Source: Verrucomicrobiia bacterium
Lineage (GTDB): Bacteria; Verrucomicrobiota; Verrucomicrobiia; Verrucomicrobiales; DEV007
Direction of reading: 5' to 3'
Assembly (NCBI GenBank): GCA_030425385.1
Contig: JAUIAH010000007.1
Coordinates: 1-64,000 of the forward strand
Length of the DNA stretch: 64,000 nt
Shown in pieces: positions 6,382 through 22,386 of the stretch (its first letter is position 1; the number at the start of each line of letters is the position of its first letter). Under the pieces are notes generated by a model, which saw nothing but the letters and a program-made list of their open reading frames with translations, had not been told where the DNA came from and did no database searches. Position numbers and translations under genes: made by a program.

Positions 6382-7701
6382 CTACGCCAGGTCGAGTGCG
6401 CCCCCCTGACAAAGCTTCGGATTGCCGAAGCTTTCCACATGGTGTTGGGCTCCGTGGGCAAAGGCCATCCAGAGGCGGTTGTGTGCCTCGTCGTCAAACT
6501 TGAGGCTGCGTCCCATCTCAAACCCGAAGCCGTCTCCGACGAGGACGAAGGGGATATTGCGCAAGGTGTGAGAGTTGCCTTTCCCGAGTTCGTTCGTCCA
6601 CACGATGGTGGTGTGATCGAGCATGGAGCCATCCGCTCCGGGCTCCGGGGTGTTGGAAAGCTTGGTCACGAGGTAGGCGAGTTGTTCAGCGAACCAGGTG
6701 TTGATCTTCACCAGCTTCTTCTGAGCATCTTCGTTGTCATCCGGTTCATGGGAAAGGCCGTGATGGCCTTCATTGATGCCTAGCCAACGCATCCGCGCCT
6801 GGCCCACGGAGTTTGTGTATTGCAGGGTAGACACGCGTGCCATGTCATTGGCGAAGGCATTGACCATGAGATCGATCTGCATGCGGGAGATCTCAGGGAT
6901 GTTGTCATTGGTATCCGACACGCCGGGCTCTAGTTCGGGAGCGGCGTGGTGCAGCTTCTGCTCTTCGGCCGCTTGGAGATCCGTTTCCATGGCACGGACG
7001 AAATCAGCGTGGTCTTCTAACAATTGGCGATCCTCCGCACTCACCATGCCCTTGAGGCGTTTCAAATCCGTCTGCAGATCATCAAGGATGCTGCCGAGGT
7101 GTTCGCGATCCTGCACCTGGCCATAGAGCTTGTTGAACATTTGATAGGGATCATCGATGGCGCCCACGGGTTTGTTAGGCCCCGAATAAACCATCCGCGT
7201 CCACGGATCCGCGCGATCAGGCACGCCGACGCCAAACTCGAGCGAACCGAAACGAGTGCGCGATTCTTCGCGGCTTTGATAGTGATTCTTGATCTCCTGG
7301 TCGATGGAGATGCCGCTGCACCAGCCCGCCGGGGTGTGGGATCCGCCTTGAATGTTGCCTGGGAAGAGTTCTTTCCCGGTGAGGAGACAGCTCATCCCTC
7401 TCATGTGACTATCACCATCACCGCGCACTTTGTTAGAGAGGCCGTGGAGCACGAGCATTCTGTCCCGATAGCTTTCGAGGGGCTTGAGGATTTCCTTGAA
7501 ATCGAAGTCTGTGCCGGTTGCGTCTGGCCAGAAGGCTTTCGGCACCGTGCCATTGGGACTGATCATGATGACAAGGCGCTGCTTCTTGCCGGAAGCCTGA
7601 GCTGCTCGGAGACTGGGAAGTCCCGAGAAGAAGGGGAGGGCGGCGGTCGACAGACCGATGTCGCGCAGGAATTGACGGCGGTTAGAGGTTCTTAGGTTCA
7701 T
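6382..7701 (-). CDS. DUF1552 secreted protein (Tat signal)
   Basis: About 439 residues from the ATG at 7701, chosen because [22 protein letters not shown] is a Tat signal (RRQFLRD) with a following hydrophobic stretch; a longer in-frame start adds 19 unlikely residues. The mature part has the DUF1552 hallmarks: [44 protein letters not shown], and near the C-terminus [15 protein letters not shown] and [10 protein letters not shown]. It overlaps the end of the upstream DUF1588/DUF1592 gene by 20 bp. These two families are almost always paired in Planctomycetes and Verrucomicrobia. Their function is not established; links to polymer degradation at the cell surface have been suggested. Confidence 0.9.
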
Positions 7702-9982
7702 GATCGGTTGAGGTGGCTTGGTTGGAGGGACTATCGTGCATGGCAGCGAGGGTCGCAATCTCGACTATGAGCGCACGGATATTGAATTGGGATGCGACAA
7801 AGTCCTGGTGGAGCGTGTCCAGGGTATTCATCCCGTAGGCATTCACGGGCTGTTTTACGAGGTGTTCAAAGAGGTGCTGGATGAACCCGCGGTGCGCCGT
7901 GGGGCTGTGTGCGGCATGCACGGCGACGTCGCGCGGTCCCCGGATGGTCAGCGAACGCCCATCCTGCGTCCCAAATTCACTCACTGGATCGATGGGGGCG
8001 TGGCGATCACGAAAGCGGTAGCGTCCTGTCGCGTCAAAGTGCTCTAGACTAAACCCTAACGGATTAATAATTGAATGACAGTTCATGCAGGCGCGGGACT
8101 TCGTGAGATCAGTGACTTTCTGCCGCATGGTTAGAGAGGGATCGAAGTGGGCGTCGTCAAATTCGATCGCTTCCGGTGGCGGCTTGAGGGAGCGCCCGAG
8201 CACCTGCCGCGCCATGAAGACGCCTCGGTGAATCGGAGACGTCGATTGATGATAGGCGAATCGTGCAAGGAGATAAGGATGGGTGAGGACGCCAGAACGG
8301 GCTTTCGGGTCGAAGGACACTTTCCGAAAGGTGTCACCTGTCATGGTCCCGTGACCGAGGAAATTGGCCAGGTCCGCATTGAGAAAGAGGTCGTTCCCTA
8401 ACAGAAGTTCTTGGTAATCCGAACGCTCACTCCAAACGACATCGTCAATGAAGAGAGTGAGCGATTGGCGGAAATCGGCGATGGTGGATGCGTCAAAACC
8501 TGGGAACAATTGATGATCCTTTGTGAGGTCGTGCTCGTCGTCCAGATGCAACCAGTGAAGGAAGAAGGTGCGCACCTTCGCACGAGCGGTGGGGTGGTCT
8601 AGCAGACGTGCAGCCTCTTTCCGGACGGCGTCCGCACTTCCAAGCCAGCCCTTCTTTCCAGCGTCGCGCAACTGGGCATCGGGCAAGCCGTCGTAGAGGT
8701 AAGTGCTCAGACGGGAAACGAGTTTCCAAGAATCTGCTGCGGGGCTCAGTTCCGGGAAAAGGAATTGGGGCGATTGCAACGCGAGCAGGACGACTCGCTT
8801 CACAGCGACATCATGGGGGGTGTCCTCACAGAAATGCTGCCTCACGAAATGTTCGCGGTCTTCCTCTGTGAGGGGGCGGCGAAAGGCGCGGCTCACCAGC
8901 GTCTCACAGAATGCCTGAATCTTCTCGGTCTCGTTCTCAGGAGCTTCTGATCGCCGCCTCGGCAGATCCGCGAGATCACGGAGATGACGCGCGACATGAT
9001 CGGCGGTTTCCAACGCGGCCGAGGTCACTGCCCTGCCCCATGCTTTTGAAACGGCAGACCCGCGCACATATCCCAAACTGCGGTCATCCGGTGGAAAGGG
9101 CGTTTGCAAGACCATTACGGGTGGTGCCGCCGTAGGACGGAGAGTGGTTGTCGGAATGATCTCGTTCACTCCATGAGGTGGCTTCCAGCGAAGTTCGACG
9201 GAGGCGGACTTGTCTTTGAATTTGAAATACTCCAAGCGCACGGGATACGCCCATCCGCCTAACAATTTCACGGTGGCTTTGGGTTCGACCATTTCCCCTG
9301 AACTCACCCAGCCATCGATTAGCGGGGTGTCCGTATCGCTGTTGAGATAGAGCTTGAATCCATTCTCTGTGCGGACGCTAAACTGATAGTCGCCTGTCTC
9401 TTCCACCATCAACGAGCCTGTCCATTCGATCGCGAACGCTTCCTCGCCGATCTCGCCCGGTAGGGGGCTCGCTTCCCCGAAGTCGAAATCGATCGTGGGA
9501 TCCACCCGTTCCAACTTCATCTTGTCTCGGCGAGTGCGTCGGTCGTCGTAGTAGCGAGCCTGCAGGCCGCGTGCCGCCTCAGCTTTCGGTTGCCAGCGGA
9601 AACTCGCCACCAGATCGGCCACCGATTGCGCGTGCTGAGCCGCCGTCAGCCGCACGAGGTCAATGCGAACAGGCCGATTCCGAGCCCGTGCCTCAGCCGA
9701 ATAGAAGGCCTCATGAATGTAGGCTGCCACCGCTTGTGCATCCTCATCAGCGCACTCTTCCGGCGCGTAATCGGGCATCGTATCGTGAATCACCTTGGCC
9801 AGATCCACCACCGTGCGGTCCCCATAGAGCGGCTCATCGTATTCATCCTCCACGCCTTCTCCCTTGTCTCCGTGGCACTCGGCGCACTGTTTCATGTAGA
9901 GAGCTTTCCCGCGCTGGGCCACTGGATTGGCCCAGGAATGCATCGGGATGAGGAGGAGAATGAGGAAGACTCGTAAAAGCAT
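7682..9982 (-). CDS. Cytochrome c / PA14 / DUF1592-DUF1588-DUF1585 protein
   Basis: 766 residues. A signal peptide ([18 protein letters not shown]) is followed by a c-type heme domain with CAECH at residues 33-37. A PA14-like domain follows at about 140-290 (LQARYYDD ... [32 protein letters not shown]). A DUF1592-type segment covers about 400-530 ([22 protein letters not shown]). DUF1588 lies around 600-680 with [25 protein letters not shown], and DUF1585 is at the C-terminus. The usual DUF1587 start is reduced to [15 protein letters not shown]. It is exported to the periplasm or surface. It is the first gene of a two-gene operon with the DUF1552 protein. The heme domain suggests a redox role, and PA14 suggests carbohydrate binding; the substrate is unknown. 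Confidence 0.9.
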
Positions 9983-10020: not shown

Positions 10021-10128
10021 CGCGAAGATTTCTCCGACAGGCGGTCGATTCCACTTTCCTCACGACCGATCGGAAATGTTCGATTCTGTTTGCATGAAAT
10101 TAAGAACATGTTTTAATGTGCCTTAATT

Positions 10129-11217
10129 ATGAACACCGCAATCTTAGAGAAATCGATACCCGCTTTGAACGTGAAGAGTCTTGAGAGCTTCGTTGCCAAG
10201 CTCGTGAATCTTGAAACCAGCGCGTCTCCCCTCATCAGTTGCTACGTCGATCTGACCAAGCCGCGCGAGGTGCAGATCGCCGAGATCCAGCACCGAGGCG
10301 CGATCGCCCGATCAGGTCTGCGTGGTCAGGCCCGCTATGACTTCGACGATGCCTTCCAAGAGATCATCGACTATCTTCGGCAGCGCCCCATGGGATCGCG
10401 GAAATCGTTAGCGATCTTTAGCCGTTGGGGAGACGAGCCTTTCTTGGCACCCATGGAATTTGAGATGCCCATGGAAGACCAAGTGAGTGTGGATAGCCTA
10501 CCAATGATCTATCCGCTGGTGGCGCTCAAGGATAAGCTCCATCGCTTCGTGGTGGTGCTCACCTCGGAAGCTGAAGCACGCATTCTTGAAGTGGTGATTG
10601 GGCAGGTGACCGAGTCCATTCTGGCGAAACGCCCTGAGCTTCGCAAGCGCGTGGGGCGTGAATGGACCAAGCAGCACTTTCAAAGTCACAAGCGGAATCG
10701 ACACACCCAATTCATCAAGGAGAAGGTGGCGACCATCGAATCGCTCATGGCGAAGAAAGGATACAATCACCTGATCATCATGGGATCGGCTCCCAATGTG
10801 ACGCGACTAACCAATGCCCTTCCCAAAGGCATTCAGGAGAAGGTGATCGAACCTAACGGAGGAGCGATTGGGCATGATGTCAGTGACGTCGTAGCCGAGG
10901 CCGTTAAGCTTTTTATTGACGCCGAGGAAGCGGAATCGCATTCGACTGTGGATCAGCTCCATGAAGGGATCATGACCAACGGTCTCGCGGTGGCCGGTCA
11001 CGACCAGGTGCTCCGGGCACTCCTGACGAGGCAAGCCGACACCCTGGTGATCCTCGATAGCTATCCGCTAGAACAACGTGAGGAACTTGTCCGCGCAGCG
11101 GTTCAGGCTAAGGTCAACATTGAAACCGTGGGCGAGAGTGAAATGCTCGACCACTATGGCGGAGCAGGTTGCTTGCTGCGCTATCGCACGCCTAGTCTTT
11201 TCGAGCATCATTCATGA
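10129..11217 (+). CDS. Bacterial archaeo-eukaryotic release factor-like (baeRF) protein
   Basis: 362 residues with the three-part layout of eRF1/Dom34-like proteins. The N-terminal domain (about 1-140) has SPLISCYVDLTKP. The central RNase H-like domain (about 140-270) has HRFVVVLTSEAEARILEV and NHLIIMGSAPNVTRLTNALP. The C-terminal L7Ae-like domain (about 275-362) has TLVILDSYP and ends GGAGCLLRY. The GGQ peptidyl-hydrolysis motif of true release factors is not visible, as in several baeRF families. Such proteins are proposed to act on stalled or hibernating ribosomes. The stop codon overlaps the MrpE start (ATGA at 11214-11217), so the gene is translationally coupled to the antiporter operon, which is unexpected. 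The exact baeRF subfamily is not assigned. Confidence 0.75.
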   Translation: MNTAILEKSIPALNVKSLESFVAKLVNLETSASPLISCYVDLTKPREVQIAEIQHRGAIARSGLRGQARYDFDDAFQEIIDYLRQRPMGSRKSLAIFSRWGDEPFLAPMEFEMPMEDQVSVDSLPMIYPLVALKDKLHRFVVVLTSEAEARILEVVIGQVTESILAKRPELRKRVGREWTKQHFQSHKRNRHTQFIKEKVATIESLMAKKGYNHLIIMGSAPNVTRLTNALPKGIQEKVIEPNGGAIGHDVSDVVAEAVKLFIDAEEAESHSTVDQLHEGIMTNGLAVAGHDQVLRALLTRQADTLVILDSYPLEQREELVRAAVQAKVNIETVGESEMLDHYGGAGCLLRYRTPSLFEHHS

Positions 11218-11705
11218 ATGTCGCGAAGCTGGCAGCCTTCATCACACGCGCCGCTGTTTTAGCGGCGCTGTGGTGGGCTTGGCTCGGAGGGGAACATTTG
11301 TCGTGGATCCTTGGCGGTCCCGCGGTTTTCGTTGGGGCCTTTGTTAGCCTGGAGCAATTGCCTCCTTTGCGCGAGCGTCTATCTATGATTCACCTCATCA
11401 TCCTCTTTCCCAAGCTTGCTCTCAGAGCGTTGTTAGGTGGGAGCGATGTCGCATCACGCGTGCTCTCCCCCCATCTGAACGTTTCGCCGACTCTCATGAT
11501 CTATCCGATCACGCTTGAGAGGAGTGTAGCTCGTTGGTTCTTCTTGCATTGTGTGAGTCTCTTGCCAGGCACGCTTAGCGCGTCGGTTGAAGGAGATGAG
11601 GCTGTGATTCATGTGTTAGCCGATGAGGAGCGCGCTATTCGTGAACTCCACAGTCTCGAAACAGATATCGCCCGCGTATTGAAAGATCCATCTTCTACTC
11701 TATGA
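11214..11705 (+). CDS. Mrp-type Na+/H+ antiporter subunit E
   Basis: 163 residues with two N-terminal membrane segments (ITRAAVLAALWWAWLGG, GGPAVFVGAFVSL) and a soluble C-terminal part containing NVSPTLMIYPITLERS, typical of MrpE/MnhE. The end (VLADEERAIRELHSLETDIARVL) is an amphipathic helix. MrpE is a small accessory membrane subunit of the multisubunit cation/proton antiporter. It overlaps the baeRF gene upstream and mrpF downstream by 4 bp each. Being first of the antiporter genes is the order E-F-G-B-C-D, unlike the classic A-B-C-D-E-F-G of Bacillus. Confidence 0.85.
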   Translation: MNVAKLAAFITRAAVLAALWWAWLGGEHLSWILGGPAVFVGAFVSLEQLPPLRERLSMIHLIILFPKLALRALLGGSDVASRVLSPHLNVSPTLMIYPITLERSVARWFFLHCVSLLPGTLSASVEGDEAVIHVLADEERAIRELHSLETDIARVLKDPSSTL

Positions 11706-11989
11706 TTGTTTCCGGTTATCAACTGCTCAGTGTTATCTTGTTAGCCACGATGATTGTCGGGTTCCTCCGCATTCTACAAGGCCCCACTGCGACTGATTGC
11801 ATCCTCGCTGTGTTCTTCTTTGGAACAACAGGGATTGGCATCCTCCTGTTGCTCTCGCTTGCCAGTGGGGACACGCGCATGATCGATGTGGGGCTCGTTC
11901 TAGCATTGCTCTCGGCGGTGGTCGGAGCCACCTACGTTCGGCTTGGGTGGCTTGCAAATCTCGGGGATCAGGGGGCGGATCATGAGTGA
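11702..11989 (+). CDS. Mrp-type antiporter subunit F
   Basis: 95 residues with three membrane helices: LLSVILLATMIVGFLRIL, CILAVFFFGTTGIGILLLLSL and MIDVGLVLALLSAVVGATYVRL. The RILQGPTATDCILA loop after helix 1 is the family signature (RxxxGPTxxDR in most MrpF). ATGA overlap with mrpE; the 3' end overlaps mrpG by 8 bp. Confidence 0.88.
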   Translation: MIVSGYQLLSVILLATMIVGFLRILQGPTATDCILAVFFFGTTGIGILLLLSLASGDTRMIDVGLVLALLSAVVGATYVRLGWLANLGDQGADHE

Positions 11990-12293
11990 AGTGACAGATT
12001 GGATTTCCTTCGTTCTTGCCTCGTTAGGATGTTTCTACTTTGCCGCTGGGGCTATTGGTCTCTTGCGTCTGCGAGATGTCTATACTCGGCTCCATGCGCT
12101 GACCAAGGCTGATCATCTTGGTCTTGGCTTGATCACAGCTGCAGCAATGGTGCAGCAGGATTCCTGGGGGAATGTGATAAAATTGGCGATGGTTTGGGTG
12201 CTTGTTCTCTTCACGAGCGCCTCCGTGGCGATGTTGACTGCAAGGGCCGCCTTGCAAGCGGGCATCGCCATGGTGAGAAAGGAGGACGCATGA
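11982..12293 (+). CDS. Mrp-type antiporter subunit G
   Basis: 103 residues from the ATG at 11982; an in-frame opening further upstream lies inside mrpF and is rejected. The family pattern is clear: FVLASLGCFYFAAGAIGLLRLRDVYTRLHALTKADHLGLGLI, then WGNVIKLAMVWVLVLFTSASVAML. Three membrane helices. It overlaps the next gene by 4 bp (ATGA). MrpG is a small accessory subunit needed for assembly of the antiporter. Confidence 0.9.
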   Translation: MSEVTDWISFVLASLGCFYFAAGAIGLLRLRDVYTRLHALTKADHLGLGLITAAAMVQQDSWGNVIKLAMVWVLVLFTSASVAMLTARAALQAGIAMVRKEDA

Positions 12294-12526
12294 TCGATGC
12301 TCTCTTGATAGGGCTCATGTTATGGGCGGCTGTACTCACGGCGGTGTTCACAGATCTCTTCCGTGCGACCGTATCGTTCATGGTCTTTGGATTCCTCATG
12401 GCTCTCATTTGGGCACGCTTGGGCTCGATCGATCTGGCCATTGCTGAGGCTGCGGTGGGATCTGGAGTCACCGGTGGGCTTTTCTTGGCTTCACTCAGAC
12501 GGTTGCATCACTATCGTGAAAACTAA
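12290..12526 (+). CDS. DUF4040 / MbhD-like small antiporter subunit
   Basis: 78 residues, about three helices: LIGLMLWAAVLTAVFT, ATVSFMVFGFLMALIWARLGS and AIAEAAVGSGVTGGLFLASL. The DLAIAEAAVGSGVTGGL pattern is the DUF4040 domain found inside the C-terminal region of MrpA in classic systems and as the separate MbhD subunit in archaeal-type membrane hydrogenases. Here it is a stand-alone gene, showing that MrpA is split. ATGA overlap with mrpG. Confidence 0.82.
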   Translation: MIDALLIGLMLWAAVLTAVFTDLFRATVSFMVFGFLMALIWARLGSIDLAIAEAAVGSGVTGGLFLASLRRLHHYREN

Positions 12527-13175
12527 CATAATCGCTTCTATCATTTCATTGGCTCTGTTTGGCACTCTCGCGCATGCGTTGATTGAGTTGCCAACAAATA
12601 CGTCGCGACTGACGTCGCTGGTCACGGCCAATCTCGATGAGAGCGGCGTGAGCAATCCAGTGACGGCAGTGCTGCTCAATTTCCGCAGTTATGATACGTT
12701 GTTGGAAATGGGGGTGCTTCTCTTGGCGTTGATCGGTGCGTGGGCCGTCGGGCCGCGGCAGACTCTTCCTGGTCACTCCGATGACACCGCGATGCTCATT
12801 GTTCTGCGCCTGTTTGTGCCACCGATCATTCTCGGTGCAGCGTACTTCCTTTGGGTTGGAGCCAAGGAGCCGGGAGGTGCCTTTCAGGCTGGTGCCATCC
12901 TTGCTGGAGCGCTGGTGCTCCTCCTGATCACGGGACGGGCCACTTGGTTTCACAGGGATGGATGGCATCGCTTCTTTCTATCTATTGGAATGTTAGTTTT
13001 TCTATCTCTCGCTGCCGCGCCTATGGCGATGGGAAGCAGCCTCTTGGACTATCCGAGATCGCAGGCCAAGCATTGGATTCTCATCATTGAGACGGCGGCG
13101 ATGCTCTCGATCGCCTTCACCCTCGTGGCTCTCCTTGTTGGTGGGCGCCCTCATTGCAAGGAAATTGCGGACTGA
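12516..13175 (+). CDS. MbhE-MrpB fusion antiporter subunit
   Basis: 219 residues from the GTG at 12516, which overlaps the preceding gene by 11 bp; a longer frame upstream is shadow. The N-terminal 75 residues (TSRLTSLVTANLDESGVSNPVTAVLLNFRSYDTLLEMGVLLLALIG) match the extreme C-terminus of MrpA or MbhE. The rest is MrpB/MnhB, recognised by GAKEPGGAFQAGAILAGALVL. About six membrane helices. Fusion of the MrpA tail to MrpB again indicates a rearranged Mrp complex. Ends in a 1-bp overlap with mrpC (TGATG). Confidence 0.85.
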   Translation: MKTNIIASIISLALFGTLAHALIELPTNTSRLTSLVTANLDESGVSNPVTAVLLNFRSYDTLLEMGVLLLALIGAWAVGPRQTLPGHSDDTAMLIVLRLFVPPIILGAAYFLWVGAKEPGGAFQAGAILAGALVLLLITGRATWFHRDGWHRFFLSIGMLVFLSLAAAPMAMGSSLLDYPRSQAKHWILIIETAAMLSIAFTLVALLVGGRPHCKEIAD

Positions 13176-13495
13176 TGGAACTGTCGAAGGTCTATATGTT
13201 AGCAGCAGCTGCGTTGGTTGCGATCGGGTTGTTTGCTATTCTGCGCACTAACCATGTGGTGCGCCAACTGCTAGGCATTAATTTGTTAGGCAATGGCATC
13301 TTTCTCTTGTTGATTGCCATCGCTCAGGCTCCCGCTGACGCGCCGGAAGAGGGGCTCGACCCTGTGCCACAGGCGATGGTGTTGACTGGGATAGTGGTCG
13401 CTGTGTGCGCCACGGGATTTGCCCTGACATTGATCGAGCGCTATCGGGCCGTCTCGGGATGTCTCACCGTGAAGGAGGGTGCCGATGCCGACTGA
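13175..13495 (+). CDS. Mrp-type antiporter subunit C (NuoK-like)
   Basis: 106 residues, three helices: VYMLAAAALVAIGLFAIL, QLLGINLLGNGIFLLLIAIAQ and PQAMVLTGIVVAVCATGFALTLIERYR. MrpC is homologous to NuoK of complex I; the second helix with GINLLGNGIFLLLI and the DPVPQAMVLTGIVV segment are diagnostic. The stop overlaps the mrpD start region by 11 bp. Confidence 0.9.
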   Translation: MELSKVYMLAAAALVAIGLFAILRTNHVVRQLLGINLLGNGIFLLLIAIAQAPADAPEEGLDPVPQAMVLTGIVVAVCATGFALTLIERYRAVSGCLTVKEGADAD

Positions 13496-14924
13496 TCCTG
13501 CGACCGCAGCATTGTGGTTGGTCTTGATTCCATTAGTGACCGCCGTAATCACCTTTCTGCTTCCTTCAGCGGGGCGTTGCCTCGTAACCGTGGCCCTAGC
13601 GATTGCGCTCCTCCCGCTGATGCAGTTGATCCAGTATCTCTGGGTGGTAGATGGTTCTGTCATTCATGCCCTGGGAGGATGGGCGGCACCATTGGGGATT
13701 GCCGTCTCTGTGCAGGGCGATAAGGCATTTCTCCTCGCATTGATCTGGCTGGTCTGTGTTGGCGTGGGGTTGTATTCCTTGCGCTACATGGGCGAGGGCT
13801 ACAAAGCCTTCTGGCCTTTGTGGATGTGTCTGTGGGCTGGATTGAATGGCTTGGTGATTGCTGATGATCTGTTCAATCTCTATGTCACGCTGGAGCTCAT
13901 CGGCCTCGCGGCCGTGGCCCTAACGGCACTGACAGGAGAAGCAGCGGCACTGAAGGCGGCCGTTCGCTATCTCATTCTGGGACTAACGGGATCGCTTCTC
14001 TATTTGTTGGGAGTCGCTCTAACGTATGCTGCTTACGGAGCCGTCGACATGCCCACGGTGGCCAAGGTGATGACAGCCACGCCAACGGGAAACGTGGCCA
14101 TTGCCCTGATGACGGTGGGACTGTGCCTCAAGGCTGCGATCTTCCCTGCGCATGTCTGGCTGCCTCCCGCGCATGCCAACGCGAAGGCGCCGGTGAGTGC
14201 GCTTCTCTCTGCATTGGTGGTGAAAGGTGCTTTTCTCATTCTTGTGCGTTTGTGGTGTGATGTCTATCGGAATGCTCAGACGTCCGGGGCGCAGGAGTGG
14301 TTGGGCTATCTGGGAGCTGCCGCTCTCCTGTGGGGGGCGAGCCAGGCGATCATTCAGCAACGTCTCAAGATGCTGATCGCTTACTCTACCGTGGCCCAGT
14401 TAGGGTATCTCTTCTTGTTGTTTCCGTTGATCCCGACGCATGCCAATGCGTGGCCAGGGGTTCTACTGATGTTGGCGGCTCATGCATTGGCTAAGACAGC
14501 CTTCTTCCTCGCTGCGGGAAATGTCATTTGGGCGGCTGGACATGATCGGCTCCGTGACTTGGACATTGTAATGCCTAGGCTTCCAGTGACGGCTTTCGCC
14601 ATCGCTCTGGCAGGCGTGAGTCTGATCGGCTTGCCTCCGAGCGGAGGATTCCTGGGGAAGTGGCTCTTGCTTGGCGTGGCCATGGAGAGCGAGCGTTGGT
14701 GGGCGGCCATTCTTCTGGTCATGGGAGGTTTGCTTGCCTCCGTCTACATTTTTCGTGTGTTGATGTTGGTGTTTAGCGGCAAAGCACCTTCTGATGCCGT
14801 TTCGTTTCAAGCACCGCCGCCAATCATGGAATGGGCTGCACTGGGCATGGCTCTTGCGGCCATTGCCTTGGGCCTTGCTTCTGAATTGCCCTTGGCCCTG
14901 ATCGAGAGAGGAGGGCGGCCATGA
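13485..14924 (+). CDS. Mrp-type antiporter subunit D (NuoL/M/N-like)
   Basis: 479 residues, about 14 membrane helices, proton-conducting antiporter family (Proton_antipo_M). The key charged residues are present: Glu in LYVTLELIGLAAVAL (helix 5), Lys in GLCLKAAIFPAHVWLPPAHA (helix 7) and Lys in ALVVKGAFLILVR (helix 8). I chose the ATG at 13485 because an AAGGAGG lies 7 bp ahead; a GTG two codons upstream is too close to that site. It overlaps the next antiporter gene by 4 bp (ATGA). Likely one of three large subunits of the antiporter. Confidence 0.9.
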   Translation: MPTDPATAALWLVLIPLVTAVITFLLPSAGRCLVTVALAIALLPLMQLIQYLWVVDGSVIHALGGWAAPLGIAVSVQGDKAFLLALIWLVCVGVGLYSLRYMGEGYKAFWPLWMCLWAGLNGLVIADDLFNLYVTLELIGLAAVALTALTGEAAALKAAVRYLILGLTGSLLYLLGVALTYAAYGAVDMPTVAKVMTATPTGNVAIALMTVGLCLKAAIFPAHVWLPPAHANAKAPVSALLSALVVKGAFLILVRLWCDVYRNAQTSGAQEWLGYLGAAALLWGASQAIIQQRLKMLIAYSTVAQLGYLFLLFPLIPTHANAWPGVLLMLAAHALAKTAFFLAAGNVIWAAGHDRLRDLDIVMPRLPVTAFAIALAGVSLIGLPPSGGFLGKWLLLGVAMESERWWAAILLVMGGLLASVYIFRVLMLVFSGKAPSDAVSFQAPPPIMEWAALGMALAAIALGLASELPLALIERGGRP

Positions 14925-16411
14925 ATAGTGCTCTGCTGCTGCCGATGATCTTGTTCAGTTCGTTCTTCACGGGCTTGATCATCTTCTTCTTGGGCGAGTC
15001 CATGCACAAGGCACGGACGTTTCTGAATCTGCTAGGTGCAGTGCTCAAGGTTGTATTGGTCGTGCAACTCTTGGCAGGTGTGCACGCAGAGGAGCCTTAT
15101 CACTCGGTGCTGAAGTTGGCTCCGGGAGTTGAGATCGTCCTGACGGCGGATGCGCTTTCGGTGTTCTTTGTGACATTGTCAGCAGCCCTTTGGTTGCTGA
15201 CGACGATTTATGCCATTGGCTATTTGGAAAGATCGCCCAACCGCAGCCGATTCTTTGGGTTTTTTAGCATTTGCGTGAGTGCGACGACGGGGGTCGCGCT
15301 ATCAGGGAATTTGATCACGTTCTTGTTATTCTATGAGTTGCTTACGCTTTCGACTTATCCGCTGGTGATCCACAAAGGGGGCGATAAGGCATTGAGAGCA
15401 GGGCAACGCTACCTCGCCTACACGCTTATTGGAGGAGCGATCCTGCTCTTCGCCATTGCTTGGCTGCAGAGTCTCGCCGGGCCCGTGGCTTTCGTGCCGG
15501 GTGGCGCTTTGGCCCCGTTTGCTGATGAACACGCCTGGGAATTGAAGGTCATCTTTGCCCTGCTCATTCTCGGCCTTGGAGTGAAGGCTGCCATCGTGCC
15601 TCTGCATGGATGGTTGCCCAATGCAATGGTAGCACCGGCCCCCGTGAGTTCTCTTCTCCACGCGGTGGCCGTGGTCAAGGCGGGTGCCTTTGGTATCGTG
15701 CGGATGGTTTACGAAGTGTATGGAATCGAGCTTAGTCGTGATCTTGGTTTACTCCATCCGCTTGCCATCGTGGCTAGCATAACGATTCTCTATGGTTCTT
15801 TCTGCGCGCTGGCTCAGGATGAGTTGAAGAAGCGTTTGGCTTACTCCACCGTGAGCCAGGTTTCCTACATAGTGCTAGGCGCAGCGATCTTTGGCCCTGT
15901 CGCAACCATTGGGGGTATCGTTCATTTGTTCCATCAGGGGATCATGAAGATCACGCTCTTCTTCGCGGCGGGAAACTACGCGCAAGCGTTAGGTATTCAT
16001 CGCATCAGCCAGATGAATGGCGTTGGTCGTAAGATGCCATGGACGACCGTGGCTTTCTCGGTTGGTGCATTAGGAATGATCGGTGTGCCCCCTTTGGCTG
16101 GGTACGTGAGCAAATGGTACCTTCAGAAGGGGGGGGTAGAAGGCGGCGAGCCTTGGATCAGCGCGGTGTTGAGTATGAGCAGCTTGCTCAATGCAGCCTA
16201 TTTCCTCCCTATCCTCTATCGCGCCTGGTTTCTATCGGGAAGCCCAGAGCAAGAGGCGGCCTCGCCAGCCAAGCGCACAGACTGGTGGATGCTCGTGCTA
16301 CCGCCTGTACTCACCGCTCTCTTTGTGGTTTACGCAGGTGCCTTTGCGGAAACACCTTACAGTCCGTTGGAATGGGCGAAGATGATTGCCCAACGCGAGT
16401 ATGAGCCATGA
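14921..16411 (+). CDS. Second NuoL/M/N-like antiporter subunit
   Basis: 496 residues, the same family as the preceding MrpD but distinct in sequence. Functional residues are kept: Glu in LLFYELLTLSTYPLV, Lys in GVKAAIVPLHGWLPNAM and Lys in HAVAVVKAGAFGIVR. In a classic Mrp complex the second large subunit is MrpA, a roughly 800-residue protein; here a normal-length subunit plus the separate DUF4040 and MbhE pieces probably does the same job. ATGA overlap on both sides. Confidence 0.85.
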   Translation: MNSALLLPMILFSSFFTGLIIFFLGESMHKARTFLNLLGAVLKVVLVVQLLAGVHAEEPYHSVLKLAPGVEIVLTADALSVFFVTLSAALWLLTTIYAIGYLERSPNRSRFFGFFSICVSATTGVALSGNLITFLLFYELLTLSTYPLVIHKGGDKALRAGQRYLAYTLIGGAILLFAIAWLQSLAGPVAFVPGGALAPFADEHAWELKVIFALLILGLGVKAAIVPLHGWLPNAMVAPAPVSSLLHAVAVVKAGAFGIVRMVYEVYGIELSRDLGLLHPLAIVASITILYGSFCALAQDELKKRLAYSTVSQVSYIVLGAAIFGPVATIGGIVHLFHQGIMKITLFFAAGNYAQALGIHRISQMNGVGRKMPWTTVAFSVGALGMIGVPPLAGYVSKWYLQKGGVEGGEPWISAVLSMSSLLNAAYFLPILYRAWFLSGSPEQEAASPAKRTDWWMLVLPPVLTALFVVYAGAFAETPYSPLEWAKMIAQREYEP

Positions 16412-18093
16412 ACGATTCGCTGATTAGGATACTTCTGTTTGCGGCGGTTGCCTTACCGCTGTTCAACGCGCTGGCTTTTGCCATTCCCGGCGTGCGCCTC
16501 GCGGCTTGGAATGGCTCTGCCCTCGCGGCGCTTCCGGCGCTTGTCTTGGCATTGATTGCGCAGCCGGGTACAGAGGCCTTCGGCCTCGTCGTGGATGAGA
16601 CAGGGCGCATCTTTCTTGGGTTTACCGCAGCGTTGTGGTTTCTGTCAGGATGGTTCACAGTGAACTGTATGCGACGAGAGAGGCATCGTGTGCGGTTCGA
16701 TGTCTTCTTCCTTCTCTCAATGGCAGGTAATTTCCTACTTATCCTGGCCCGCGATATTCCCACATTCTACGCGGGCTTTGCCCTCATGGGCTTTGCTTCC
16801 GCTGGCTTAGTGTTGCATCGTGGCGATTCAGAAGCCTTGCGTGCGGGGAGGCTCTACATTGCGCTCGCTGTGTTTGGGGAGGTTATGCTCTTTGTTGGAT
16901 TCGGGCATTTGGCGGCCGGAAGCGCATCGCTGCGCATCGATGAGGTGGTGTCGTCGTCCACTTCAAAGGCAGCTATCATGATGCTGTTGATCGGGTTTGG
17001 ATGTAAAGCTGGTGCGCTCAGTCTGCATTTCTGGTTGCCCCTTGCGCACCCAACGGCACCCGTTCCAGCGAGTGCGGTGCTCAGTGGTGCCATGATCAAA
17101 GCAGGTATCTTTGGATGGATTCGCTTCTTACCATTGGGCCTAGTCGAATGGCCGGATCTCGGAATCACGCTGATTGTTCTTGGGTTGCTAGGTGCTTTGT
17201 TAGGAGTGGCTGCTGGGGTAACCCAAGGGAATCCCAAGACGGTGCTGGCTTATTCGAGTTTGAGCCAGATTGGAATCATGATGGTTGCATTTGGTGTGGC
17301 GTTTCTAGATCCTGCGAGTTGGCCGGCTCTTCTGAGTGCTCTCATCATTTACGCGGCTCACCATGGACTCGCCAAGGGGGCCCTCTTTCTCGCCGTTCTT
17401 CCTGTCAAGAATTGTCGGACGCGATGGCATGTTTGCTTGGGGTGCCTTGGACTGCTTCTCCCTGCACTAGCTTTGGCTGGTGCTCCCTTCTCGAGTGGTG
17501 CGGTGGCTAAGCTTGCTCTGAAGGAACCCATTCGCTATTTGCCGGGTTTTTCGGCAGTCTTGGTAGGCGTGTTATTGCCATTGGCGGCTACGGGAACAAC
17601 CTTGTTGATGATTCGCTATCTGAGCCTTGCCTGGCCTAAGCAAGCCCCTAGCAATGTACGCACGAGCGACGACAGTCTCTGGATTCCGTGGGGGCTTGCT
17701 GTGCTAAGCACGCTCCTTGGCGTTTGGTTTGTTCCCGGAGGGATTGTGGACCTTGATAAGGTGACCACGCCTGCCAAAGTCTGGGCCAGTGCCTGGCCGG
17801 TGCTAGCAGGAATCGGTCTAGCGCTTAGTTGGCATCGCCTTAAGAAGAGCTTTCATTGGAAGACACCGGTAGGCCTCCCAGCAGGTGATGTGGTTGTATT
17901 GTTAGAAAGGTTGGTCCCGAAGCGAATCAGGAAGGCGATTGCTTTCGTCCCCAATAAAGACCCTGCGAGCCTTGCTCCTCGCGTGCGGGTGGATTGGCTG
18001 CGGATGGCTTCCTTGGCTGAGCAGAGAGTGCGGGAAGGGATTTGGGTTCTCCTGGCGGTGCTCTTGCTTGCCTTACTTCTGTCGATGCGATAG
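16408..18093 (+). CDS. Third NuoL/M/N-like antiporter subunit, altered helix 5
   Basis: 561 residues, another proton-antiporter homologue with a longer C-terminal tail. The helix-7/8 lysines are present (GFGCKAGALSLHFWLP, GAMIKAGIFGWIRF). The segment that should carry the helix-5 glutamate reads FYAGFALMGFASAGLVLH; where its neighbour has FYELLTLSTY, the Glu is replaced by Gly/Ala. Loss of this residue abolishes ion transport in studied MrpA/MrpD proteins, so this subunit may be structural, or use another path. It ends the operon; the gap of 30 bp to cls has no terminator I can see. Confidence 0.82.
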   Translation: MNDSLIRILLFAAVALPLFNALAFAIPGVRLAAWNGSALAALPALVLALIAQPGTEAFGLVVDETGRIFLGFTAALWFLSGWFTVNCMRRERHRVRFDVFFLLSMAGNFLLILARDIPTFYAGFALMGFASAGLVLHRGDSEALRAGRLYIALAVFGEVMLFVGFGHLAAGSASLRIDEVVSSSTSKAAIMMLLIGFGCKAGALSLHFWLPLAHPTAPVPASAVLSGAMIKAGIFGWIRFLPLGLVEWPDLGITLIVLGLLGALLGVAAGVTQGNPKTVLAYSSLSQIGIMMVAFGVAFLDPASWPALLSALIIYAAHHGLAKGALFLAVLPVKNCRTRWHVCLGCLGLLLPALALAGAPFSSGAVAKLALKEPIRYLPGFSAVLVGVLLPLAATGTTLLMIRYLSLAWPKQAPSNVRTSDDSLWIPWGLAVLSTLLGVWFVPGGIVDLDKVTTPAKVWASAWPVLAGIGLALSWHRLKKSFHWKTPVGLPAGDVVVLLERLVPKRIRKAIAFVPNKDPASLAPRVRVDWLRMASLAEQRVREGIWVLLAVLLLALLLSMR

Positions 18094-18123: not shown

Positions 18124-19560
18124 ATGCTTGATTCCCTCCAGTTTTGGGGCCTCCTCGTTGTTGGCGTGGAGCTTCTTGGCATTGCTGCTGCCGCGCATGC
18201 GGTGATGCATGTGCGCAGCGATCAAGGTACGATCGCTTGGTGTCTGGGCTTGATCGCCATGCCTTTGATTGCTCTGCCTTTGTATGTGGTCTTTGGGCGG
18301 GCGAAGTTTGCCCGTTACCGTGAAACCATTTCTAAAGCTTTTGATCAGAACCGTTTGAATGATCATGCGCTTGCCGATGCTATACGTCCGTTTGTGTTTC
18401 AGTCGGATGAAGCACCGAACCGAATCGAAAGCGTTCTAAGCAGGCTTTCTCCATTCTCATTTACCCAAGACAATGAGATGATTCTTTTGATTGATGGAGA
18501 AATAACATTTGAAGCGATCTTCGAAGCGATCCGAAAGGCGGAGTCTTATATCTTCATTGAATTCTATATCATTCGTTCAGACGCGTTGGGAAATCAGTTG
18601 CGTGACTTGCTTGTGGAGCGGGCGGCTGATGGGGTGAAGGTTTATCTTCTTTATGATGAGATAGGGAGTAAGGATCTATCAAAAGATTACCTGCGCATTC
18701 TTGAGACAGCCAATGTCGAAACGGCATCTTTCGGACCGCCTTTGCGCCGCTGTGATTTCTTTCACTTGAACTTTCGGAACCATCGCAAGATCGTGGTGAT
18801 CGATGGACATACCGCGTTTGTCGGGGGCCACAACGTGGGTGAGGAGTATTTGGGGAAATCGCGACGCTTCGGCCACTGGCGTGACACTCATGTGCGTCTG
18901 CGAGGGCCGGCTGCCTTGGATTGCCAGCGCGTTTTTCTGGAGAGCTGGTACTGGGCGACGAGGCGGCGCCCCAACATCCCTCTCATCAAGCCGCTACCGC
19001 AGAATCATACCGATGGCATGACCTTGATCCTTCCCACGGGCCCGATTCGTGGAGAAGATGTGTGCACACTCGCATACAAGACGTTGATGAACCATGCGAA
19101 GAGGCGGTGTTGGATCACAAGTCCTTACTTTGTGCCAAACGAGTCCACACTGAATGCACTCCGTTATGCTGCTTTGAGGGGTGTCGACGTGCGATTGCTA
19201 TTGCCTGCCAAGCCTGATCACTTGATTGTCCACTTGGCTGGCTACAGCTACTTGGAAGCCTTGGAGGAGTGGAAAGTCCAGGTCTACCGATACGAAGCCG
19301 GATTTCTTCATCAGAAAGTCATTCTCATTGATGATATGATCGCTGGCGTCACGACGATCAATCTTGATCAACGTTCTTTCCATCTGAATTTCGAGATTGG
19401 TGTCTTTGCCACGGGGCAAGCATTCGTGAGTCAGGTTGCTGAGATGTTAGAATTGGATTTCGAGAAAAGTCGCCTGATCACAGCGGCAGATTTCCGACAT
19501 CGCAACTTGCCGTTTCGTGTTGGAGTGAATGTTGCACGGTTGTTCTCTCCAGTGCTCTGA
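18124..19560 (+). CDS. Cardiolipin synthase (phospholipase D superfamily)
   Basis: 478 residues. Two N-terminal membrane segments (LLVVGVELLGIAAAAHAVMHV, GLIAMPLIALPLYVVFG) are followed by two HKD catalytic motifs: HRKIVVIDG near residue 220 and HQKVILIDD near 395. Both His, Lys and Asp are intact. Also present are EFYIIRSDALG and NLDQRSFHLNFE, usual in bacterial ClsA. The enzyme joins two phosphatidylglycerol molecules to cardiolipin at the inner membrane. It follows the antiporter operon on the same strand and may be co-transcribed; cardiolipin supports respiratory complexes. Confidence 0.93.
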   Translation: MLDSLQFWGLLVVGVELLGIAAAAHAVMHVRSDQGTIAWCLGLIAMPLIALPLYVVFGRAKFARYRETISKAFDQNRLNDHALADAIRPFVFQSDEAPNRIESVLSRLSPFSFTQDNEMILLIDGEITFEAIFEAIRKAESYIFIEFYIIRSDALGNQLRDLLVERAADGVKVYLLYDEIGSKDLSKDYLRILETANVETASFGPPLRRCDFFHLNFRNHRKIVVIDGHTAFVGGHNVGEEYLGKSRRFGHWRDTHVRLRGPAALDCQRVFLESWYWATRRRPNIPLIKPLPQNHTDGMTLILPTGPIRGEDVCTLAYKTLMNHAKRRCWITSPYFVPNESTLNALRYAALRGVDVRLLLPAKPDHLIVHLAGYSYLEALEEWKVQVYRYEAGFLHQKVILIDDMIAGVTTINLDQRSFHLNFEIGVFATGQAFVSQVAEMLELDFEKSRLITAADFRHRNLPFRVGVNVARLFSPVL

Positions 19561-19573
19561 TAGAGGTAGGGCG

Positions 19574-20245
19574 TTAGGATGCTTGATAACTCGGTTTATC
19601 GATGGGATCGAAAGCGATCTGGTCGGGTGCAATGGTGCCACCTGAGATGACGAATGTCATGGCTTCATCCATCGTCCAGTTCGTAGAGATGACCTTTTCT
19701 GCGGGGACAATCTCTAGATAGCCGGATGTCGGATTAGGCGTAGTGGGCACGTATACGGCGACCAGTTTACGACCGGTATTGGTGTCATTGAAGCTGCGCG
19801 TGACTAGGCCGACTGTTTTCATCTCGCGCTGAGGGAAGTCGATGAGCACGACTCGTTGGACCTCATGTCCAGGAGGCTCGCTGAGTACTGCCACCAACTT
19901 CTTCACCGATCCATAAACGGATTTCACCAATGGAATCTGCTCAAGTAGTTGCTCAAGGAGACGAATCGCTCTGCGTCCGATCATCAGAGAGGTAGCTAAA
20001 CCCACGCCGTAGATGACGGCGCCAACGAGGATAACTTCGAGAAAGGCTTGTAGGGTCTTGTTCTCCAGTACCGTGGAGAGAGTTGGCATTAGCGGTTCGA
20101 TCAGCCGGGCAAACCAATCGATTGGTGGGCCGCCGATCTCGCGCATGAGCCCGAAGAGGAAGCGGAAGACAAGCCAGGTGACCCAGAGAGGGATGAGAGC
20201 AGTGACGCCCGCGATCAAGTAACGAGAGAGATGGGGTTTCCGCAT
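19574..20245 (-). CDS. DUF502 membrane protein
   Basis: 223 residues from the ATG at 20245, giving MRKPHLSRYLIAGVTALIPLWVTWLVF, a typical DUF502 start; a longer in-frame version adds a basic, non-homologous 47 residues. Two membrane segments (about 8-28 and 75-95, with VGAVIYGVGLATSLMIGRR), then the soluble part with LLEQIPLVKSVYGSVKKL, VVLIDFPQREMKTVGLVT and VYVPTTPNPTSGYLEIVP, all hallmark segments. Function in the family is unknown, possibly membrane integrity. Convergent with cls (13 bp apart). Confidence 0.9.
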   Translation of the reverse strand: MRKPHLSRYLIAGVTALIPLWVTWLVFRFLFGLMREIGGPPIDWFARLIEPLMPTLSTVLENKTLQAFLEVILVGAVIYGVGLATSLMIGRRAIRLLEQLLEQIPLVKSVYGSVKKLVAVLSEPPGHEVQRVVLIDFPQREMKTVGLVTRSFNDTNTGRKLVAVYVPTTPNPTSGYLEIVPAEKVISTNWTMDEAMTFVISGGTIAPDQIAFDPIDKPSYQAS

Positions 20246-20472
20246 AGGGATAATCTTTTGGGTGGGAATGGGGCGACGACCCCTTCGCCTCAGCCGAGGC
20301 CTAGATTCAGCCGTCTTGTAGTGCCGATCGGCGCTGGTTTGGAGGATGAGAGCATGATTGATGCATGCAGGTGCTAATTGATACATGAAAATAAGTGCAT
20401 GTCAACAAGCTCTTAAGAAAACAGAAGAGAAGGCGCGCGCGTGCCTTTGTGGGGCAAATTCGAATCAAGTAT

Positions 20473-20500
20473 TTGACAGGATTTAAATAACATGTAACAG
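20473..20500 (+). promoter_or_regulatory. Possible promoter ahead of the 20.5-kb membrane gene
   Basis: TTGACA at 20473-20478 is a perfect -35 box; TAACAG at 20495-20500, 16 bp later, is a moderate -10. The region is AT-rich relative to its surroundings and contains a direct repeat CATGTAA (20491-20497 and 20505-20511) that could bind a regulator. The gene's ATG is 36 bp downstream. Confidence 0.3.
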
Positions 20501-20536
20501 ATATCATGTAAAAATTGACGTAATCAGCTTATCCTT

Positions 20537-21289
20537 ATGAACAGATCCTTCCTTTCCTCGACTCTTTCCTTCGTGCGCTCCGTGAAGCTACACTGGACAG
20601 CAGCTTTCGCTTTAGGTGTGATCCTTGGAGCCTGGCCGCTCTTGGGAGGCGCATGGATTCCCCTTGGGGCGGCAGTCGGCATGGTTTTGTTGTTCGCTCT
20701 CTTGACTGCTGCTGGTGTCCTAGCGTTTCGAATGGCGCTCAGGCGTTCCGGTGTGGATTATGAGGTCTGTGAGATGGGTCCGGTTGGGCTCTTTCTGCCG
20801 CGTGCCTTGGAACGCCTGGCTCCAGCGAGGAGAATAGCGCTCGCGATGGTAGTTCCTCTTGTATATCTTGCGGCTGGTCTGCTGACACTGCCATTTCTTC
20901 TACGAGCTGGTGGGTTGGAGGGCGTCTTGGCCGCGTGGGATTGGTGGAGTTTCTCCATGGTGGCAGCAAGGTTCTCCCTCATGAGCCTTATATTGGCCGC
21001 CGCGTATCTACTCCCCGTGTATCCCTTGGCGGGTGTTCATGTAATAGAGTCCATCCTTGAACATTTCTTCAAAGCCGAACTGAGCCACCTAGTTAGCTGT
21101 CGAATAGCACAATTGACCGCTTTAGGGATTATCCTTTGGTTCGGAATCACTCCGGTGGTCTTGGTGCTTGGGTTTTACCTCATAGTGGCTGCAGAACAAG
21201 CGCGTCGCACGCATTCCGCGAAGAAGTGTCTTGGTCACGAGAGGAGGGCAGGGAATGTGGAGACCGATAGAGAACCAGCCCTTGCGTGA
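20537..21289 (+). CDS. Multi-pass membrane protein, unknown
   Basis: 250 residues with about six hydrophobic stretches (WTAAFALGVILGAWPLL, LGAAVGMVLLFALLTAAGVLAF, IALAMVVPLVYLAAGLLTLPFLL, FSLMSLILAAAYLLPVYPLAG, LTALGIILWFGITPVVLVLGFYLIV) and a basic, hydrophilic C-terminal tail. I recognise no family with confidence. It is followed by the DUF2333 and VTT genes on the same strand with gaps of about 30 bp, so the three may form an operon concerned with the envelope. Confidence 0.7.
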   Translation: MNRSFLSSTLSFVRSVKLHWTAAFALGVILGAWPLLGGAWIPLGAAVGMVLLFALLTAAGVLAFRMALRRSGVDYEVCEMGPVGLFLPRALERLAPARRIALAMVVPLVYLAAGLLTLPFLLRAGGLEGVLAAWDWWSFSMVAARFSLMSLILAAAYLLPVYPLAGVHVIESILEHFFKAELSHLVSCRIAQLTALGIILWFGITPVVLVLGFYLIVAAEQARRTHSAKKCLGHERRAGNVETDREPALA

Positions 21290-21325: not shown

Positions 21326-22357
21326 ATGAATGCATTGTCAGATTCTTCAGAGAACATGGAGACGACCCTTGTGCCTTCCTCCAAGCCTCTCCCACGGTGG
21401 AGGCGCTTCCTATTGCCATCATCACTCTTAGGTTGTGTCGTCGTACTCTTCCTTGTCGCTTTGAGCATTTATGTGAGCAGGGGTCCCGCGCTTTTCGATG
21501 TTATGGAAAAGGCGAGAGCCAAGGTGGGGGGGGATTCTGGGGCCTTGAAACGGGGCTATTTGACCACTTCAGCGATCTATCATGTTGGCGAAACACTTTT
21601 GAATAAGCCGGGTGGCTATCAGACGAATGATGTATTGCCTCCGACGGCTCTCCTTGATAACATGTCAAGTTGGGAATTCGGAGTGGTGGTAGAATTAAGA
21701 GACGCGGTGCGTTCATTGAGGAATGATTTTAGTAGGGCGCAGACGCAGTCGATCGAAGACCGGGATTTGATGACTGCGGACTCACAATTTCACTTCGATC
21801 ATACCCGTCTAATGCTCCCGTCGACTGAGGAGGAGTTCAGTAAAGGTCTGGAGGCACTGCAGCGTTATCTTGATCGCCTGCAGAAGGGTGATGCTCACTT
21901 TTACAATCGTGCGGATAATCTAAACTTTTATCTAGCCACGGTAGAGAAGCGTTTGGGGAGCCTATCGCAGCGCTTGAGTAATAGCGTGCGGGAGTCCTAC
22001 TTGAGAGAACTCATTCATGACAATGAAGACGCCTTGGTGGAAGTGGCAGAACCCACTCCGTGGACAGAGATCGACAACGTGTTCTTTGAAGCGCGTGGTT
22101 ATGTGTGGGCGCTTATTCACACGCTTCGTGGGATTCAGGTCGACTTTGATACTGTCTTGGAGAACAAGAATGCAACCGAAATGTTAGAGCGCATCATCGA
22201 GAAGCTTGAGAACACTCAGCGATCCATCATGAGCCCGGTGATCCTCAATAGTAGTGGTTTCGGCATGCTTACAAACCACTCACTCGTCATGGCCTCCTAC
22301 ATCTCCCGCGCCAATGCTGCGCTGATTGACCTGAGGAGATTGCTCCAGGAGGGATAG
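21326..22357 (+). CDS. DUF2333 family protein
   Basis: 343 residues with one N-terminal membrane anchor (LLPSSLLGCVVVLFLVALSIYV), the rest periplasmic. Family blocks are clear: KRGYLTTSAIYHVGETLLNKPGGYQTNDVLPP, LLDNMSSWEFGVVVELRDAVRSLRNDFSRAQTQS, and FYNRADNLNFYLATVEKRLGSLSQRLS. DUF2333 is mostly known from Gammaproteobacteria and has no assigned function. Its presence here may reflect transfer or a wider distribution. The ATG at 21326 lies 36 bp after the previous stop. Confidence 0.85.
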   Translation: MNALSDSSENMETTLVPSSKPLPRWRRFLLPSSLLGCVVVLFLVALSIYVSRGPALFDVMEKARAKVGGDSGALKRGYLTTSAIYHVGETLLNKPGGYQTNDVLPPTALLDNMSSWEFGVVVELRDAVRSLRNDFSRAQTQSIEDRDLMTADSQFHFDHTRLMLPSTEEEFSKGLEALQRYLDRLQKGDAHFYNRADNLNFYLATVEKRLGSLSQRLSNSVRESYLRELIHDNEDALVEVAEPTPWTEIDNVFFEARGYVWALIHTLRGIQVDFDTVLENKNATEMLERIIEKLENTQRSIMSPVILNSSGFGMLTNHSLVMASYISRANAALIDLRRLLQEG

Positions 22358-22386
22358 CGTTTGGCCACGTTCATCATTTTGTGTTC

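Follow-up and report, generated by a model that had tools for sequence, protein, structure and literature searches.

Why should a gene of the ribosome release-factor superfamily stand at the head of an operon for a sodium/proton antiporter? The question is raised by a baeRF gene in the window, which is the whole 64,000-nucleotide stretch of DNA analysed here (contig JAUIAH010000007.1, positions 1-64,000, assembly GCA_030425385.1; its genome is called G000 below). There, baeRF immediately precedes mrpE and the other genes of an Mrp antiporter. Gene order compared across the order Verrucomicrobiales indicates that the link of baeRF to sodium and bicarbonate transport is real and broader than the baeRF-mrpE pair alone. 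We consider it probable that the protein is a ribosome factor similar to the hibernation factor Balon and that it belongs to a regulon for sodium and inorganic carbon.

Genomic Neighbourhoods of baeRF

When 386 genomes of the order were searched with a profile, baeRF was detected in 40 of them. We examined 41 genes in their context, 25 from the clade of the window protein (window clade) and 16 from a sister clade. The second baeRF of G003, a genome of the same genus as that of the window, was counted apart and the fragments G570:C2 and G597 were left out. The frameshifted gene of G523 entered the context count and was absent from the tree and palindrome sets, and the partial genes G712:C31 and G622 were used for the context count only. 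Representatives of each partner family were confirmed by Pfam.

In the window clade 16 of the 25 loci lay within 5 kb of genes for NhaA, SbtA or Mrp (15/24 without the window), against 0/16 in the sister clade, a zero partly limited by contig ends since the contigs L108, L112, L118, L120, L126, and L130 are short; in sister-clade G509 sbtA was found 5.5 kb away. The partners were Mrp (G000, G680), NhaA together with SbtA and Mrp (G003), SbtA-SbtB (G011, G521, G354), NhaA (G013, G016, G545, G580, G673, G685, and, with phosphoenolpyruvate (PEP) carboxylase, G516), or Mrp upstream with SbtB-SbtA convergent (G683, G582, G589). When carbonic anhydrase or DabA-DabB (G498, G523, G505) were also accepted as partners, the count rose to 19/25.

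NhaA was single-copy in 10 of the 40 genomes and was located within 5 kb of baeRF in eight of these, being the next gene in seven (expected 0.024), and SbtA was within 5 kb in 7 of the 11 clade genomes that have it (expected 0.033); because the loci are related, these counts are not independent and the chance figures are inflated, so that changes of context on a tree are the safer measure. In the maximum-likelihood tree (39 rows, including G003 and G030 as partial proteins and the second baeRF of G003 on a very long branch) the sister clade formed one fully supported branch, and the NhaA, SbtA, and Mrp contexts required at least 5, 4, and 4 changes. Thus, partners were swapped repeatedly, while the theme of sodium and inorganic carbon stayed.

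Another recurrent neighbour was a small winged-helix gene, present in the same stretch in 19/25 loci of the window clade, in 17 of them within 5 kb (the distance was 5.4 kb in G505 and 6.6 kb in G003), and in 0/16 of the sister clade. It matched HTH_24 in both cases tested.

Several neighbourhoods have features of their own. In G025 and G030 (L013 and L017, one genus) baeRF is preceded by obg and a small gene, whose copy in G025 has no Pfam match, and there is no palindrome of the kind described below; in sister-clade G294 and G708 (L024, L108) a bactofilin gene is directly 3′ of baeRF, also with no palindrome. The baeRF of G523 (L132), broken by frame changes, adjoins carbonic anhydrase and the winged-helix gene. 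The winged-helix gene and the carbonic anhydrase gene of G683 flank a gene for an Ion_trans family channel (L103:9823-10677), which resembles bacterial voltage-gated sodium channels.

Within the phylum, the clade was nearly confined to this order: of 387 genomes sampled across the phylum the profile matched 4, and the sole match outside the order (G208) covered 56 positions; this short baeRF-like match, possibly a fragment, lies in another family of the phylum just 5′ of a universal-stress-like gene (L025, about 6980-8075). The window protein as single query gave two more weak matches outside the order (G109, E 2.6e-5; G264, E 1.8e-4), which the profile did not repeat. A single-protein scan of a genome-contig collection gave no match. 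Viral contigs and plasmids yielded no relative either, and so provided no hint that phages or plasmids are involved.

Family and Motifs of the baeRF Protein

The window protein matched PF18854 (baeRF_family10) with 67.9 bits, the gathering cut-off being 27.1, over a middle domain at residues 125-258, which follows an N-terminal part. An eRF1_3/pelota-like C-domain at 270-353 scored 22.4 bits, under its cut-off of 25.8. A nine-sequence profile compared with the PDB had Balon MSMEG_1130 as its best match (E 1.8e-13, alignment over positions 18 to 297), followed by archaeal Pelota (3.7e-12), aRF1 (1.4e-9), and Rv2629 (5.2e-6). By homology, the protein is thus a member of the aeRF1 superfamily and a remote relative of Balon.

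The first-pass annotation had suggested looking for a GGQ-like loop. None of the 36 full-length sequences, window included, has GGQ in the loop, none has NIKS anywhere, and the set has no invariant loop glutamine; a lone GGQ string in G016 sits near the N-terminus, outside the loop. The loop itself is basic and mostly conserved across the 36 sequences (GREWTREHY..HRRER), the window protein reading HTQF at a place where other members show, for instance, NRRF or TRKF. The missing GGQ, NIKS, and invariant glutamine, together with the basic loop, favour a catalytically inert ribosome binder like Balon.

A Palindrome Shared by baeRF and Its Partners

An AT-rich inverted repeat of 18 bp, CATG-N10-CATG, is conserved upstream of baeRF. 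Expectation-maximisation modelling of 24 upstream regions gave CATGAAATTAATTTCATG, with a total score of 371 versus 218-232 in five shuffled sets. In a leave-one-out analysis the palindrome was present before baeRF in 19 of the 24 loci, including the window (at most 15 of 1000 shuffles scored as high). The window site, CATGAAATTAAGAACATG, reached 16.7 bits with 0/1000 shuffles as high, and the pattern search detects it with 3 mismatches. None of the 14 sister-clade upstream regions reached 12.9 bits, and a motif search on these 14 gave a different, weaker motif. The palindrome of baeRF is also kept in G565 and G609, where the partners are absent within 5 kb.

Scanning 591 kb of context with the matrix yielded 47 matches of at least 13 bits versus 4.2 in shuffles, 24 in the training regions and 23 outside. 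Some of the outside matches occupy the spacer that separates sbtA from the winged-helix gene (L023, L103, L104) or the start of the carbonic anhydrase gene (L023, L103); in L104 they also occur before a gene heading Mrp genes that by eye resembles the L124 universal-stress gene. In G003 they lie before the second baeRF and its universal-stress gene (Pfam), around the winged-helix gene, and between PEP carboxylase and sbtA. Half-sites often recur at 14-bp steps.

In the genome of the window a site of 22.9 bits was found 80 nucleotides before a Pro_CA (carbonic anhydrase) gene, and two sites were located at the likely start of its winged-helix gene. A search of this whole genome with up to 2 mismatches, which the sites of the window itself escape as they have 3, returned 9 palindromic places against 0 for the reversed pattern; by a crude check eight of them are inside an open reading frame (ORF) and may be due to chance, and one is intergenic, before carbonic anhydrase. 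A further palindrome of 19.6 bits (L134:7039-7056, G000:C2) lies 13 nucleotides 5′ of a 156-residue ORF, near the winged-helix gene of this genome. A -35/-10 pair can be seen by eye around the window palindrome (TTGCAT at 10090, TTTAAT at 10112); a promoter scan found no site there, and its counts were no higher than in shuffles.

The first-pass annotation had guessed that a ribosome-rescue or hibernation factor may be tied to pH or sodium stress. Such a tie is supported by a clade that adjoins NhaA, SbtA/SbtB, and three Mrp arrangements, and by a promoter palindrome common to baeRF and other genes for ions and carbon.

The Operon of the Window and Its Relatives

The features of the window are collected in Table 1. 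Subunits B, C, D, E, F, and G of Mrp occur together, as assigned by Pfam and NCBIfam. Instead of a single fused MrpA, the operon has the MbhD and MbhE/MnhB parts of MrpA as genes of their own. The D-type subunits number three, an unusual count for Mrp, and D3 is closest to hydrogenase-4 subunit B models. As previously annotated, baeRF overlaps mrpE by 4 nucleotides (ATGA) and every following gene overlaps its neighbour, the subsequent junctions measuring 4 (mrpE/F), 8 (F/G), 4 (G/mbhD), 11 (mbhD/mrpB), 1 (mrpB/C), 11 (C/D1), 4 (D1/D2), and 4 nucleotides (D2/D3), a range of 1-11 over nine junctions. Short overlaps are ordinary within operons, so that ATGA by itself says little; what exceeds chance is the association across genomes. 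Downstream, a palindrome cluster at 20384-20522 lies between the DUF502 gene (minus strand) and the genes from 20537 through DUF2333 and VTT (plus strand).

Table 1: Features of the window around baeRF.
Feature	Position	Strand	Basis and remarks
18-bp palindrome, candidate operator	10093..10110	.	18 nucleotides 5′ of the baeRF start; 19.0 bits by position weight matrix
baeRF_family10 protein, 362 residues	10129..11217	+	Pfam, NCBIfam; PDB relatives Balon MSMEG_1130, Pelota/aRF1
mrpE (MNHE)	11214..11705	+	Pfam
mrpF (MrpF_PhaF)	11702..11989	+	Pfam
mrpG (PhaG_MnhG_YufB)	11982..12293	+	Pfam
mbhD/DUF4040 (MbhD), MrpA C-terminal piece as separate gene	12290..12526	+	Pfam, NCBIfam
mrpB (MnhB), GTG start	12516..13175	+	Pfam; MbhE match sub-threshold
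mrpC (Oxidored_q2)	13175..13495	+	Pfam
D1, first MrpD/NuoN-like subunit (Proton_antipo_M)	13485..14924	+	Pfam, NCBIfam
D2, second MrpD-like subunit (Proton_antipo_M)	14921..16411	+	Pfam, NCBIfam
D3, third MrpD-like subunit (Proton_antipo_M)	16408..18093	+	best NCBIfam model hydrogenase 4 subunit B, under cut-off
PLD-family gene	18124..19560	+	gap of 30 nucleotides after D3; neighbour also kept in G003
DUF502 protein	19574..20245	-	likely start MRKPHL, by comparison with L011 (G003)
Second palindrome, upstream of DUF502	20384..20401	.	19.1 bits
CATG-type half-site array, 14-bp steps	20477..20522	.	14.2, 16.6, 14.7 bits; 14 nucleotides before the gene at 20537
Protein with weak M50 match	20537..21289	+	below cut-off; followed by DUF2333 and VTT
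DUF2333 protein	21326-22357	+	3′ of the gene at 20537
VTT-domain protein	22381-23070	+	3′ of DUF2333

The orthologous Mrp operon of G003 also has baeRF in front, and upstream of this baeRF, in the same direction, there are NhaA, PEP carboxylase, SbtA, and SbtB. The G003 sequence is spread over more than one contig. Where the SbtB side meets the Mrp side, inside baeRF, the junction is backed by an exact overlap of 32 bp; for the junction between Mrp and the second baeRF the contig ends showed no overlap, and the evidence is that the third subunit breaks off between residues 260 and 269. The second baeRF (L011:12114-13223, minus strand) separates the Mrp genes from the PLD gene and is strongly diverged (24% identity; PF18854 score 28.1 bits, cut-off 27.1), with palindromes of its own at 13255 and 13269.

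The first-pass annotation had suggested looking for a conserved baeRF-mrpE adjacency, its reading to be contradicted by close relatives in which mrpE-F-G stand alone. Mrp genes in general do stand without baeRF, as only 2 of 66 MnhE matches (in 54/95 genomes) are beside it and 64 are not, while the orthologous operon is headed by baeRF in both genomes of the genus that were seen, G000 and G003. This type of Mrp also occurs in genomes of Kiritimatiellales, Pontiellaceae, and Xylanimonas, where the baeRF profile found no match in 3/3 genomes searched, a result that depends on the assemblies and is to be compared with the 40/386 matches of the same profile within the order. Scanning the genome-contig collection with D2 gave 4 loci, one being the G003 contig itself.

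These data bear on the possibility that translation of baeRF sets the synthesis of the Mrp subunits, the gene being retained in the operon for this effect in cis; the annotation had gone as far as making translation of the antiporter dependent on baeRF. The ATGA overlap would suit such coupling, as would the lack, by eye, of an obvious Shine-Dalgarno sequence before mrpE and the nhaA genes that overlap the baeRF stop by 4 nucleotides in G013 and 1 in G016 (ATGA or TGATG). However, the junction in G003 is a gap of 22 nucleotides when the start homologous to that of the window mrpE is used (an earlier in-frame ATG would overlap by 44 nucleotides), the eight further loci measured with both genes on one strand have gaps of at least 19 nucleotides before nhaA, sbtA or mrpA, and in G354, G683, G582, and G589 baeRF is convergent with SbtB-SbtA or comes after Mrp. 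With the overlap not conserved in G003, and the same type of Mrp occurring where baeRF was not detected, dependence on baeRF is not supported, and coupling as the reason for the arrangement appears improbable. In the window, G013, and G016 the overlap would tie the dosage of the ribosome factor to an antiporter, which is not general.

Proposed Mechanism and Alternatives

The reading that we prefer, a Balon-like ribosome factor within a sodium and inorganic-carbon regulon, builds on gene order, overlaps, homology, and the palindrome with its distribution. From these we infer the identity and sign of a regulator, the inducing signal, co-transcription, ribosome binding, and physiological coupling. 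The baeRF protein would be an inert aeRF1-type protein acting like Balon, that is, occupying the ribosomal A site and parking ribosomes. The regulon would comprise the Na+/H+ antiporters Mrp and NhaA, the Na+/bicarbonate importer SbtA with SbtB, beta-type carbonic anhydrase, and universal stress proteins, with DabAB or PEP carboxylase as occasional members. A small winged-helix regulator may bind CATG half-sites 14 bp apart at the promoters of the regulon, its own included; it is perhaps a repressor, as the site sits where the promoter would be. The signal would be sodium, pH or bicarbonate. In a bad ion or carbon state, transporters and ribosome factor would be made together, the former restoring the gradient and the latter idling ribosomes meanwhile. 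In the window the whole scheme would be compressed into one overlapping unit, from the palindrome through baeRF and mrpEFG to D3.

The full form of this proposal is an ion-gated ribosome hibernation, in which the winged-helix regulator, at CATG-N10-CATG operators, would switch a dedicated A-site factor along with the antiporters for Na+/H+, the importer for Na+/bicarbonate, and carbonic anhydrase, with the result that an imbalance of sodium, pH or inorganic carbon directly idles ribosomes. We put this forward tentatively, as possible rather than probable. If true, it would constitute a ribosome-silencing stress channel distinct from starvation and cold. Balon-type factors were found only recently and have many relatives; for what triggers these, the clade offers a specific candidate (sodium, pH or bicarbonate), and it predicts a regulator and an operator.

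Several observations weigh against this reading, beginning with the relatedness of the loci mentioned above. Six of the 25 clade loci (G025, G030, G565, G566, G609, G679) have none of the partners within 5 kb; for G030 the contig stops within baeRF. The genome of the window gave a match to neither NhaA nor SbtA. Five of the 24 loci lack the palindrome within 250 bp (G013, with one 472 bp upstream, G516, G680, G025, and G030), and L111, a context from the sister clade, contains one of the 47 matches. Of these 47, 24 lie in the regions from which the palindrome was learned, a concern softened by the leave-one-out analysis and the outside matches. That the winged-helix protein binds the palindrome is proposed from their co-occurrence; in the genome of the window the only relative of the winged-helix gene that was found is on another contig. 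The second MnhE loci of G000 (C74) and G003 (C377) have no site of at least 11 bits in 19 kb each, so not every Mrp would be in the proposed regulon. As for the protein, the NCBIfam equivalogs for Balon, NF052289 and NF052288, gave 58.6 of 320 and 58.4 of 480 bits, far under the cut-off, which makes it a relative of Balon and not a filed member, and AlphaFold2, given the window protein plus one relative, produced no usable structure (predicted local distance difference test 38.6, predicted template modelling score 0.24). Regarding the signal, extracts of PMC12382314 report that SbtA and SbtB of Synechocystis fall at pH 9.2, so that high pH is not an obvious one.

It may be asked whether baeRF is still a ribosome factor at all, or has become a cytosolic regulator or adaptor of transporters that keeps an old fold, as the PII-like SbtB serves SbtA. 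Its recurrence near transporters from three unrelated families and a similarity to Balon that is only remote would agree with this. On the other hand, it is difficult to imagine a single adaptor serving NhaA, SbtA, and Mrp alike, both the domain plan and the basic loop are conserved, and two genomes have baeRF after obg, which codes for a GTPase that binds ribosomes, and a small gene. We regard the adaptor as unlikely. Alternatively, baeRF could be hitch-hiking in a stress-gene island under a common regulator, with no specific tie to ions. The neighbourhoods do include universal stress genes, HprK, and others, but hitch-hiking seems quite unlikely, given that the partners were swapped repeatedly yet within the genes for sodium and inorganic carbon, and that G565 and G609, without any such partner within 5 kb, still have the baeRF palindrome. 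A factor active in release or rescue, hydrolysing peptidyl-tRNA on ribosomes stalled under salt stress, is highly doubtful: Pfam does assign the protein to family 10, which the 2019 release-factor survey, in the extract seen of PMC6514570, singles out as keeping a conserved glutamine, but the loops of the clade hold neither GGQ nor an invariant glutamine in its place.

Comparison with Known Systems

The preferred reading, a Balon-like factor in a regulon for sodium and inorganic carbon, has its closest precedent in Balon itself (Rv2629/MSMEG_1130), which according to extracts of PMC10901736 is likewise aeRF1-like, has no GGQ or NIKS, and is found among stress genes; the window protein differs in falling below the equivalog cut-offs. 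The published neighbours of Balon, in the same extracts, include RaiA, Hsp20, OsmC/OsmY, HdeD, MarC, EmrB, and RtcB, and a term search of the main text of PMC10901736 returned no antiporter, NhaA, sodium or bicarbonate. Our searches of open-licence PubMed Central gave no title or abstract start that links hibernation factors or baeRF to transporters. Thus, it is known in general that such factors are associated with stress genes, and, as far as our literature searches show, a sodium and inorganic-carbon regulon has not been described.

With baeRF_family10 (PF18854) the window protein shares a middle domain above the curated cut-off, whereas its clade has no invariant loop glutamine and the family is described, in the extract of PMC6514570, as keeping one; the same extract associates baeRF families with the hibernation factor HPF. 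The operon resembles Mrp (CPA3) Na+/H+ antiporter operons in its subunits B, C, D, E, F, and G and its MbhD-type pieces, and differs from them by a split MrpA, three D-type subunits, and baeRF at its head.

In cyanobacteria, the regulator NdhR/CcmR of carbon-concentrating genes is of the LysR type. The baeRF neighbourhoods are similar to the cyanobacterial carbon-concentrating genes in the SbtA-SbtB pair, the carbonic anhydrase, and the DabAB-type genes; here, in contrast, these occur in another order, with a winged-helix regulator and a ribosome-type protein in the set.

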